DNA of 51,100 nucleotides from Vampirovibrio chlorellavorus (lineage in GTDB: Bacteria; Cyanobacteriota; Vampirovibrionia; Vampirovibrionales; Vampirovibrionaceae). The translations under genes and the position numbers were made by a program. The notes below the pieces were generated by a model. That model was not told the DNA's origin and searched no databases. It saw nothing but the letters and a program-made list of their open reading frames with translations. The DNA lies in contig CAIPMU010000009.1 of assembly GCA_903866275.1 (NCBI GenBank), forward strand, positions 1 through 51,100, read 5' to 3'. Position 1 is the first letter of the stretch. Every line of letters begins with the position of its first letter. This document shows positions 135-20,993 of the stretch, one piece after another.

Positions 135-1349
135 TCAGCTTTTGAGGAGCTGTTCGTGTAACGTTAACAGCAGATTACGGGCAATGCGATCTTTACGATC
201 TCGTTCCAGTTTGTGGTGATTTCCATTGGCTAGTATGAGAGTCATTTCATTTTGATCTGCTTCAAAACCAATATCTGTTCTGCTAATATCGTTAGCTGCT
301 ATGGCATCCAGGTTTTTACGATGGAACTTGTCAGTGGCGTTTTTCAGTAAATCCTGAGATTCTGCAGCAAAGCCTACTAATAGTTGACCGGTTCGCTTTC
401 GTTGTCCCAACGAGGCCAGTATGTCCGGGTTTGGCGTTAATGCCAGTGTGGGTGTAAGTTGTTGCTCGCGTTTGATTTTATGTTCAGCTGGGTTCGCCGG
501 GGTGTAATCTGAAATGGCGGCTGCCATCAGAAGTAGATCCGTATCCTCGAATCGTGTGTTCAATTCGGTTTGCATATCAGATGCGGTCTTTACTGTAATA
601 ACATCGTACAATCGGTGATTCGGTGGTTTTGTGCTGATGAGAGTCACTGTTGCGCCCATTGCATAGAGTTCATCCGCCAATGCCAGGCCCATTTTTCCGG
701 AGCTTCGGTTGGAGATGACCCTGACGGGATCGATGGGTTCACTGGTGCCTCCAGCGGTTACGATGGCCTTGATGCCTTTGAATAAGTTTTTTTCTGGGTG
801 TACTGATTGATAGAGCGCCTGTAAAATGGTTTCCTGATCAGCCAGATGTCCGTCACCGGTTTCACCGCAGGCTAAGTTCCCCGAGGTTGGCTCTACAATC
901 ACGTAGTTTGGTAGTTGTCGGATTGTGTCCAGATTTTGCCGGGTTAAGGGATGATCCCACATGCGTGTGTTCATGGCTGGAACGACGATAACAGGCTTTC
1001 CAGTGAACGTGATGACTGACGTTGTTACAAGGTTGTCCGCTGCGCCATGAGCGAGCTTACAGAGGCTGTCAGCTGTCGCTGGTAAAACAACCAGCGCATC
1101 GGCCTGCTGTGCAATGACAATGTGGATGGGAATCCCACCATGATCTACTGCGAGCGTCTCCGTAAATACCGGATACCGACTCAATGCCTGCAGTGTGAGT
1201 GTCGTAACGAACTCTGCCGCATTGGGGGTCATAATGCAAAGTACCCGTTCCGCATTCCGTCGATAAAGTTCTCGGACGAAATCGCATGCCTTATAGGCTG
1301 CAATACCGCCCGTTACTGCGACAGCTATTGTTTTTCCGGTTAAATCCAT
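135..1349 (-). CDS. coaBC: Bifunctional phosphopantothenoylcysteine decarboxylase / phosphopantothenate-cysteine ligase
   Basis: Makes 4'-phosphopantetheine for coenzyme A in two steps: CoaB joins cysteine to phosphopantothenate and CoaC decarboxylates the product with FMN. The 404 residues match the usual bifunctional length. The N-terminal flavoprotein half starts with VTGGIAAYK, carries the catalytic His region (IPIHIVIAQQADALVVLPATA), the PAMNTRMW substrate loop and a LACGETGDGHLAD segment with the active cysteine; most homologues have GRM where this has GHL. The C-terminal ligase half shows VTAGGTSEPIDPVRVISNRSSG, AAAISDYTP, KIKRE and LVGFAAE. The ATG at 1349 puts the flavoprotein motif at residue 10, and AAGG lies about 8 nt upstream. 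Transcribed alone, away from the sRNA region. Confidence 0.96.
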   Translation of the reverse strand: MDLTGKTIAVAVTGGIAAYKACDFVRELYRRNAERVLCIMTPNAAEFVTTLTLQALSRYPVFTETLAVDHGGIPIHIVIAQQADALVVLPATADSLCKLAHGAADNLVTTSVITFTGKPVIVVPAMNTRMWDHPLTRQNLDTIRQLPNYVIVEPTSGNLACGETGDGHLADQETILQALYQSVHPEKNLFKGIKAIVTAGGTSEPIDPVRVISNRSSGKMGLALADELYAMGATVTLISTKPPNHRLYDVITVKTASDMQTELNTRFEDTDLLLMAAAISDYTPANPAEHKIKREQQLTPTLALTPNPDILASLGQRKRTGQLLVGFAAESQDLLKNATDKFHRKNLDAIAANDISRTDIGFEADQNEMTLILANGNHHKLERDRKDRIARNLLLTLHEQLLKS

Positions 1350-1636: not shown

Positions 1637-1654
1637 AATGTTACAAATTGTAAA
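1637..1654 (-). promoter_or_regulatory. HLR1-like direct repeat upstream of sRNA A (candidate RpaB site)
   Basis: AATGTTAC-AA-ATTGTAAA read on the plus strand. The cyanobacterial HLR1 element is (G/T)TTACA(T/A)(T/A), two nucleotides, then the same octamer. On the minus strand this site fits 15 of 16 constrained positions. It ends 27 bp before the -35 box of sRNA A. Confidence 0.5.
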
Positions 1655-1681
1655 CACTCGTGTTGAATGCGTCCAAAATGG

Positions 1682-1709
1682 TTGCAATGATCGGTTGAAG
1701 CGATATTCT
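1682..1709 (+). promoter_or_regulatory. Predicted sigma70 promoter of sRNA A
   Basis: TTGCAA (1682-1687), 16-nt spacer, TATTCT (1704-1709). Predicted transcription start near 1716. The geometry matches the promoter of sRNA B. Confidence 0.55.
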
Positions 1710-1715
1710 ACTTAC

Positions 1716-1835
1716 AACAAATCAATCGCGTACCGATTGAAGTAAGTATTAAAACTCTTAAATCTTTCACTTTCCCCCTCACTCCCAACCTAAAAATTGG
1801 ATCGACCCCCTAACTTGTTATGGGGTCTTTTTTTT
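1716..1835 (+). ncRNA. Predicted small RNA A (C-rich loop, tandem copy 1)
   Basis: About 120 nt. The parts in order are: a 5' stem-loop (ACTTAC 1710-1715 with GTAAGT 1742-1747, enclosing TCAATCG 1722-1728 with CGATTGA 1734-1740); an A/T-rich linker; the segment 1767-1790, identical over 24 nt to copy B and including CCCCCTCACTCCCAACC; and a terminator hairpin (GACCCC 1804-1809 with GGGGTC 1822-1827, inner TAAC/GTTA) followed by eight T. Stem-loop, unpaired C/U-rich stretch and terminator is the layout of the cyanobacterial sRNA Yfr1, but the Yfr1 core motif is not present. No open reading frame explains the conservation. The 5' end is inferred from the promoter. Confidence 0.7.
1804..1835 (+). 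terminator. Intrinsic terminator of sRNA A
   Basis: GACCCC/GGGGTC outer stem with a TAAC/GTTA inner stem, then TTTTTTTT at 1828-1835. Confidence 0.85.
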
Positions 1836-1936
1836 GGGTTTGCAATGCTGCTTTACGATTGTCGTTTGTCATTAGGCTGATTGGCGCTTTGCTGATGATG
1901 TGTGGGAGCTGATTTTTGTGTGAGCAAGTGGGTAGA

Positions 1937-1954
1937 ATTGTAACGAAATGTAAA
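1937..1954 (-). promoter_or_regulatory. Perfect HLR1 match upstream of sRNA B (candidate RpaB site)
   Basis: ATTGTAAC-GA-AATGTAAA on the plus strand, which is two perfect HLR1 octamers with a 2-nt spacer on the minus strand (16 of 16 constrained positions). It ends 28 bp before the -35 box of sRNA B, almost the same distance as in copy A. A RpaB-type regulator is encoded at 20226-20993. Confidence 0.6.
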
Positions 1955-1982
1955 AAGGTTAATGTTCAAAATACACAAATCC

Positions 1983-2010
1983 TTGCCTTCAGATTTGGAC
2001 GCGGTATATT
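1983..2010 (+). promoter_or_regulatory. Predicted sigma70 promoter of sRNA B
   Basis: TTGCCT (1983-1988), 16-nt spacer, TATATT (2005-2010). Predicted start near 2017. Confidence 0.6.
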
Positions 2011-2016
2011 TATCTT

Positions 2017-2118
2017 CACAAAGTTAGTAACACACTAACATCCCTACAAAAACACTCACTTTCCCCCTCACTCCCAACCAAAAAATGGATCGACCTCTGA
2101 GCAAGAGGTCTTTTTTTT
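2017..2118 (+). ncRNA. Predicted small RNA B (C-rich loop, tandem copy 2)
   Basis: About 100 nt. It has a 5' hairpin (GTTAG 2023-2027 with CTAAC 2035-2039), the same 24-nt segment as copy A at 2056-2079, then TGGATC and a terminator (GACCTCT 2092-2098 with AGAGGTC 2104-2110) followed by eight T. Outside the shared segment the two copies differ, yet each keeps a 5' hairpin, an unpaired C-rich segment and a terminator, which favours selection on RNA structure. The C-rich segment is complementary to G-rich SD sequences, so a role in blocking translation is possible but inferred. Confidence 0.72.
2092..2118 (+). terminator. Intrinsic terminator of sRNA B
   Basis: 7-bp stem GACCTCT/AGAGGTC with a GAGCA loop, then eight T (2111-2118). 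Confidence 0.85.
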
Positions 2119-20225: not shown

Positions 20226-20993
20226 TTGAGCGCTACAGAGAAAGAAATCGCCGGAAGCAGTCAGAAATCGTCTGGCCGGGCTGAGAAAGTCTTAATTGTG
20301 GATGACGAGGCGAGCATTCGCCGCATTTTGGAAACCCGTTTCAAAATGTTGGGATTCGATACGGCGACCGCTGCCGATGGCGAGGAAGCCCTGGACGTTT
20401 TTAACAAGTTTTCCCCCGATGTGGTGGTACTGGACATTATGATGCCCAAGCTGGACGGCTATGGCGTGACCAAAGAGATCCGCAAGCAGTCCGATACGCC
20501 CATTATCATTCTGACCGCCCTCGGTGATGTGGCTGAGCGTATTACCGGCCTGGAGCTGGGTGCCGATGATTATGTGGTGAAGCCCTTTAGCCCCAAAGAA
20601 CTGGAAGCCCGCGTGAAGTGCATTCTGCGGCGTACTGTGTCTAAGGGCGGTTCCGTGGCGCCTTCCAGCAAGGAAGCCAATAACGTTGTCGTGGTGGGTA
20701 ACCTCAAGATCGATTTAAACAAACGCCAGGTGTTCAAGAAAAATGAGCGTGTGCGCTTGACCGGCATGGAATTCAGCCTGCTGGAACTGCTGGTGAACAA
20801 CTCCGGTAAGCCGTTTTCCCGGGGTGAAATTCTGCAGCACGTCTGGTCTTACCCGGCGGATCATCGTATTGATACCCGCGTGGTGGACGTGCATATCAGC
20901 CGTCTGCGTTCCAAGCTGGAAACCGATATTAGCAATCCGGAACTAATCCTGACCGCTCGCGGTATTGGCTACATGTTCCAGAAAATCGATTAA
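20226..20993 (+). CDS. rpaB: RpaB/Ycf27-type OmpR-family response regulator
   Basis: 255 residues. The receiver domain (about 20-137) has the acidic pair Asp26/Asp27, phosphoacceptor Asp70 in VVVLDIMMPKLDGYG, Thr97 and Lys119. The stretches EASIRRILETR, AADGEEAL, MMPKLDGYG, LTALGDVAERITGLELGADD and VKPFSPKELEAR are those of cyanobacterial RpaB. The winged-helix domain (about 155-254) ends VDVHISRLRSKLETDISNP and TARGIGYMFQKID. RpaB is an essential cyanobacterial regulator of light-stress and other genes through HLR1 sites. The start is a TTG with AAGAGG about 9 nt upstream. No sensor kinase adjoins it, as is usual for RpaB. Confidence 0.88.
   Translation: MSATEKEIAGSSQKSSGRAEKVLIVDDEASIRRILETRFKMLGFDTATAADGEEALDVFNKFSPDVVVLDIMMPKLDGYGVTKEIRKQSDTPIIILTALGDVAERITGLELGADDYVVKPFSPKELEARVKCILRRTVSKGGSVAPSSKEANNVVVVGNLKIDLNKRQVFKKNERVRLTGMEFSLLELLVNNSGKPFSRGEILQHVWSYPADHRIDTRVVDVHISRLRSKLETDISNPELILTARGIGYMFQKID

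Follow-up and report, generated by a model that had tools for sequence, protein, structure and literature searches.

Tandem genes of a putative HLR1-linked, C-rich small RNA family in Vampirovibrio, a lineage described as non-photosynthetic

The response regulator RpaB has been discussed mostly as a light and redox regulator of photosynthesis. It is the regulator known for exactly the HLR1 motif, and the position of this motif is related to its effect, with activating sites at -66 to -45 in PCC 6803, and repressing sites that overlap -38 to +23 in PCC 6803 and PCC 7942 (PMC13421787). In Synechocystis, the HLR1/RpaB regulon includes PsrR1 (SyR1), a trans-acting small RNA (sRNA) that blocks the translation of its target mRNAs (PMC13421787). 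The cyanobacterial Yfr1/Yfr10 RNAs (RF01116) are formed by two stem-loops around an unpaired, C-rich core containing CCUCAC, with the last stem acting as the terminator (PMC2190773, PMC6778093). The Vampirovibrio lineage has been described as non-photosynthetic and related to the Cyanobacteria, a status taken here from the published work, and homologues of both RpaB and NblS have been noted, with no known function, in the wider group to which it belongs (PMC3787301, PMC4451040). The retention of RpaB by these relatives has been known since 2013 (PMC3787301).

The window (the whole stretch of 51,100 nucleotides analysed here) comprises the whole of contig C9 in a 98% complete draft genome of 3.0 Mb, which belongs to the genus Vampirovibrio, whose other members include G001 and G004 (V. 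chlorellavorus NCIMB 11383). An earlier note on this DNA had proposed a pair of RpaB-controlled regulatory RNAs at positions 1637–2118, and nearly all its numbers proved to be correct. This segment most likely represents two genes in tandem, each transcribed independently, that belong to a family of trans-acting sRNAs not previously described. A probability of roughly 0.7 is given to the reading in which RpaB, via HLR1, would activate these multi-copy, C-rich sRNAs, which would in turn block ribosome-binding sites.

Like PsrR1, the RNAs are presumed to be controlled by RpaB, but they differ in being tandem and multi-copy, with an HLR1 located well upstream of the promoter, outside the repressing zone. 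The photosystem I (PSI) and phycobilisome targets of PsrR1 are not expected in the Vampirovibrio lineage, given its description as non-photosynthetic (PMC3787301, PMC4451040). The scans of Rfam, which were the sole comparison made with PsrR1 and whose coverage of this RNA is uncertain, returned no match. As in Yfr1, the folds and the compensatory changes in the hairpin indicate two stem-loops parted by an unpaired stretch, but the core is CCCCCUCACUCCCAACC rather than ACUCCUCACAC, the RNAs are approximately 100–120 nt long, in comparison with 54–69 nt, and they are linked to HLR1. The sRNAs RsaE and FsrA of the Firmicutes also carry UCCC or C-rich motifs, in unpaired stretches that are thought to pair with ribosome-binding sites, but there is no homology with the present family, and both the phylum and the regulator are different.

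Structure and distribution of the RNA family

The two genes, whose transcription start sites (TSSs) are predicted, occupy positions 1716–1835 (copy 1, type A) and 2017–2118 (copy 2, type B) of the forward strand, and, in the fold of each RNA, a 5' hairpin and a terminator flank a long, unpaired, C-rich core (UUUCCCCCUCACUCCCAACC). In copy 1, the hairpin (1722–1740) is followed by the core (1767–1790), a small CCAA/TTGG stem (1785–1800), and the terminator (1804–1827, with a T-run to 1835). Copy 2 has a 5' GTTAG/CTAAC hairpin (2023–2039), the core (2056–2079), and the terminator (2092–2110, with a T-run to 2118). The 24-nt single-stranded core reported for both modules is indeed identical in the two copies, TCACTTTCCCCCTCACTCCCAACC, and is conserved across genera. 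Both modules also fold as had been claimed, with z-scores of -2.4 (copy 1) and -3.5 (copy 2) in relation to dinucleotide shuffles, and terminator stems that differ in sequence and share the same form.

The RNA was searched for by DNA comparison (BLAST) and by a covariance model (R1) built on the RNA alone, which together recovered 20 strong copies in 11 of the 18 genomes sampled from the order, distributed in two of its three families. Tandem copies are also found in G001, G003, G004, G007, and G009, and G005 may have a diverged second copy; further copies occur at unlinked loci. No copy was detected in G002, a genus-mate (sister species) of the source, or in G008, a member of the family (G002 and G008, 94% complete), both of which have RpaB. 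In approximately 220 further genomes of the class, the covariance model returned no confident match, and the one weak match was in G211 (E 6e-4 among 240 genomes). Exact matches to the core outside the order, in Gastranaerophilales (L056), Proteobacteria (L057), and Oscillatoria (L058), were attributed to chance, with the layout of hairpin, terminator, and HLR1 being absent. The earlier note had proposed that the pair was either kept or re-used. Given that the RNA is restricted to this lineage, re-use is better supported than inheritance, and the RNA looks lineage-specific, rather than an inherited part of photosynthesis.

Two forms of the RNA can be distinguished by the 5' end, which is GTTAGTAA in type B, with other sequences in type A, a form that includes copy 1 and the copies in first position in the genus-mates and in G007. 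The type B hairpin is maintained by compensatory changes (CAGTTA/TAACTG, GGTTA/TAACC, CGGTTAG/CTAACCG), with a combined p of 1e-8 for a set of 14 copies that includes related ones. Almost no variation is seen among the copies in the core, TTTYCCCCTCACWCCCAAC, and the terminators retain their stem with different letters. The application of RNAalifold to the MAFFT alignment recovered no structure, because the lengths of the hairpins vary among the copies, and shuffles of the individual sequences were used in its place. A diverged fourth member lies between the tandem copies of G009 (L006:1051-1146), with the shared 5' hairpin GGTTAGTAATAAACC, a terminator, and the core ACTCACACACTCACTC. No Rfam family was recovered at the sRNAs, in either the gathering or the E-value mode, and a search of the open literature yielded no publication dealing with sRNAs or HLR1 in the Vampirovibrionales lineage. 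On the comparative evidence, this sRNA family of the Vampirovibrionales, with its conserved HLR1 promoter architecture, is real and undescribed.

HLR1 sites, promoters, and RpaB

The HLR1 motif was defined as the 18-bp direct repeat KTTACAWW-N2-KTTACAWW, scored out of 16. The site of copy 1, TTTACAATTTGTAACATT (1637–1654, reverse strand), scores 15/16, and that of copy 2, TTTACATTTCGTTACAAT (1937–1954, reverse strand), scores 16/16, values which were reproduced on recomputation, and these are the only sites of at least 15/16 on either strand of the 51.1 kb window. The promoters consist of a TTGCAA -35 and a TATTCT -10 in copy 1 (1682–1709, forward strand), and a TTGCCT -35 and a TATATT -10 in copy 2 (1983–2010, forward strand). 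The 16-nt spacers, and the onset of the -35 at 27 and 28 bp past the HLR1, are exactly as previously described. Both copies carry an HLR1 direct repeat upstream of the promoter, as predicted for an RpaB regulon, and each repeat is reversed in relation to its sRNA, an orientation that is absent from the earlier note and conserved in the relatives.

The motif and an orthologous regulator are shared with the HLR1-RpaB regulon of the photosynthetic Cyanobacteria, but the geometry is different. The sites lie at approximately -80 to -62 of the predicted TSS, as in the window, or at about -75 to -53, with those of some relatives reaching -70 to -53, and they are always reversed and phased by 10 bp, in comparison with the activating position of -66 to -45 in PCC 6803 (PMC13421787). 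Relative to these predicted starts, the sites of the window fall in neither the activating nor the repressing zone, and, as these zones were described in two photosynthetic species, they do not strictly define the possibilities here.

The maintenance of the HLR1-promoter spacing in related genomes, which the earlier note had set as a check, was strongly confirmed. An HLR1 of at least 13/16, in the same reverse orientation and at a helically phased position, is present in 15 of 17 non-redundant copies, with a gap between the end of the HLR1 and the -35 of 27–29 bp in 11 copies and of 17–19 bp in four, that is, two classes separated by one helical turn (10 bp). The p-values of the single copies, in relation to first-order Markov sequences, range from 0.0003 to 0.004, and the combined value (p ~8e-28) overstates the evidence, given that the copies share ancestry and that the gap classes were chosen after the data had been seen. 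The phased HLR1 is missing from two of the three strong copies of G009. A third paralogue of the source genome (G000:C16:183602-183704), a weak match of 33.9 bits to the RNA-only covariance model, carries TTTTCCCCTCACTA as its core and also includes a terminator, and the gap between its 14/16 HLR1 and a TTGAAA-17-TATACT promoter further on is exactly 27 bp. As the model that recovered this paralogue was based on the RNA alone, its HLR1 represents an independent check. Throughout the genome, the HLR1 pattern outnumbers its reversed control in all four genomes analysed (24 v 9, 20 v 3, 25 v 5, and 22 v 8).

The window also encodes the predicted binder of both HLR1 sites, an OmpR-family response regulator (20226–20993, forward strand), which is a true RpaB by the NCBIfam equivalog NF045944, with 354.8 bits against a cut-off of 330, in agreement with the initial identification. 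All 18 genomes of the order contain a match, 15 of them above the cut-off, and only one genome of the control set exceeds this value. The anatomy of the genes, their conservation, the geometry of the HLR1, and the presence of RpaB can be read directly in the sequence. The phased HLR1, the RpaB of all the order genomes, and the genome-wide excess of HLR1 support the proposal that the two regulatory RNAs are probably controlled by RpaB.

Proposed mechanism and its implications

From these features, we infer the transcription of the RNAs, the binding of RpaB and its sign, and the pairing with ribosome-binding sites. In the proposed mechanism, RpaB would bind the HLR1 approximately 62–80 bp upstream of the predicted start of each sRNA gene, and contact the RNA polymerase, activating the promoter rather than blocking it. 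The unpaired C-rich core would then pair with G-rich ribosome-binding sites in several mRNAs, whose translation would be reduced, so that the output of RpaB would be passed on post-transcriptionally, with the gene dosage provided by several sRNA copies. Activation is suggested by the fixed orientation of the HLR1 and its phasing by one helical turn, and is favoured by a location further upstream than the known zones, with the helical face maintained. Against this, the HLR1 is located approximately 16 bp upstream of the known activating position of Synechocystis (-66 to -45).

Pairing of the core is stronger with 133 initiation regions than with random 50-mers (means of -10.6 and -8.5 kcal/mol), but the core does not outperform shuffled C-rich cores on these regions (rank 16 of 60), and the genome has no excess of its perfect complements (47, in comparison with 47 for the reversed control). 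For these reasons, no specific target is named. An intergenic segment at L105:1460-1530 (G000:C13:159872), GGGTGGGAGTGAAGG ... GGAAGGGGGTGTGAGTTTTTTTT, matches the complement of the core at all but one position, and may possibly be a sponge RNA or a product of chance.

A link between HLR1 and the prepilins was also considered. Five of the 24 HLR1 sites of the source genome are near prepilin genes, but none of the 30 sites in three relatives repeat this association, and it was thus left out of the claim. The five loci (L025, L031, L036, L037, and L041) lie within 400 bp of the starts of N_methyl-like prepilins, in comparison with 0/26 control loci, by a crude motif test in which the ORF flagged at L041 is not a prepilin, although a PF07963 prepilin adjoins the site. 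The source genome has 43 type IV prepilin (PF07963) genes in 3.0 Mb, a set that looks unusually large.

Alternatively, a different OmpR/PhoB-type regulator encoded in the source genome may bind the HLR1-like sites. Direct repeats of the TTTACA type are common in this family, and in most genomes of the order RpaB is accompanied by one or two additional OmpR-family regulators (205–224 bits to the RpaB model), any of which could recognise HLR1-like DNA if its half-site were similar. The two paralogues of the source genome are located at G000:C14:57550 and C18:147129. Binding by such a regulator is rather unlikely, as the conserved sites match the full 18-bp consensus, including the 2-nt gap, at up to 16/16, and this very motif is known as the site of RpaB (PMC13421787), which alone exceeds the equivalog cut-off. 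A reversal of the sign, in which RpaB would repress the sRNAs, as in the cyanobacterial high-light regulon, and its release would induce them, has a precedent in PsrR1 of PCC 6803, a member of the RpaB regulon that is active under high light (PMC13421787). Repression is nonetheless improbable here, given that repressing sites overlap -38 to +23 (PMC13421787), whereas in this family 17–29 bp separate the end of the HLR1 from the -35 that follows, with conservation of the helical phase.

Two further explanations concern the RNA itself. An ancestral Yfr1/Yfr10, highly diverged and retained even though photosynthesis was lost or absent, would account for the similar layout of hairpin, unpaired C-rich core, and terminator, and for the CCUCAC in common, and one relative (L007) reads CCCCUCACACCC. 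The second tandem pair of the source genome, described below, also holds the exact undecamer of Yfr1, ACTCCTCACAC. Such descent is doubtful, as the Rfam check for Yfr1 that the earlier note had proposed gave no RF01116 match in the source genome, and detected the S. elongatus control. The ultraconserved undecamer is also missing from the HLR1-linked family, nearly all copies of which have the core CCCCCUCACUCCC, the family is undetected in the approximately 220 other genomes of the class, and short C-rich motifs converge easily. Leaders, in turn, can carry C-rich segments that sequester ribosome-binding sites, followed by terminators, and the segment might be read as a pair of cis-acting leaders or attenuators, or the 5' UTR of a downstream gene. 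This is very improbable, given that an intrinsic terminator closes both units and no gene is conserved downstream. The divergent coaBC (135–1349, reverse strand, in the window) remains beside the locus in six relatives (G001, G003, G004, G005, G006, and G009), whereas the flank on the other side differs between species, the adjoining trpA is on the opposite strand, and the unlinked copies are also contrary to a leader.

The second tandem pair of C-rich RNAs in the source genome (L203:1501-1590 and 1834-1920; G000:C16:247770 and 248103), TTTTCACCTCACTCCTCACACTCACTCC, ends in terminators and is spaced by approximately 333 bp, with the undecamer in the first RNA and ACTCCTCATAC in the second. This pair has no HLR1 and no Rfam match, and was not found in 28 relatives.

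The activation of the sRNAs by RpaB, as proposed here, would provide a candidate for a concrete and conserved output of this regulator, consisting of a new sRNA family and a defined architecture of its promoters, in the lineage of the once-cultured predator V. chlorellavorus. It suggests that a regulator of photosynthesis acts, in this lineage, on some other process by way of RNA, and permits questions on the role of RpaB outside photosynthesis, and on whether the wiring of RpaB to sRNAs arises repeatedly. It is tentatively possible, at well below even odds, that RpaB has been rewired in the predatory, non-photosynthetic cyanobacteria to a dedicated, multi-copy, and lineage-specific family of C-rich sRNAs, a post-transcriptional arm that may tune attack-phase or surface functions, for example the numerous prepilins. 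If this is true, circuits from RpaB to sRNAs would have evolved separately in the photosynthetic and non-photosynthetic branches.
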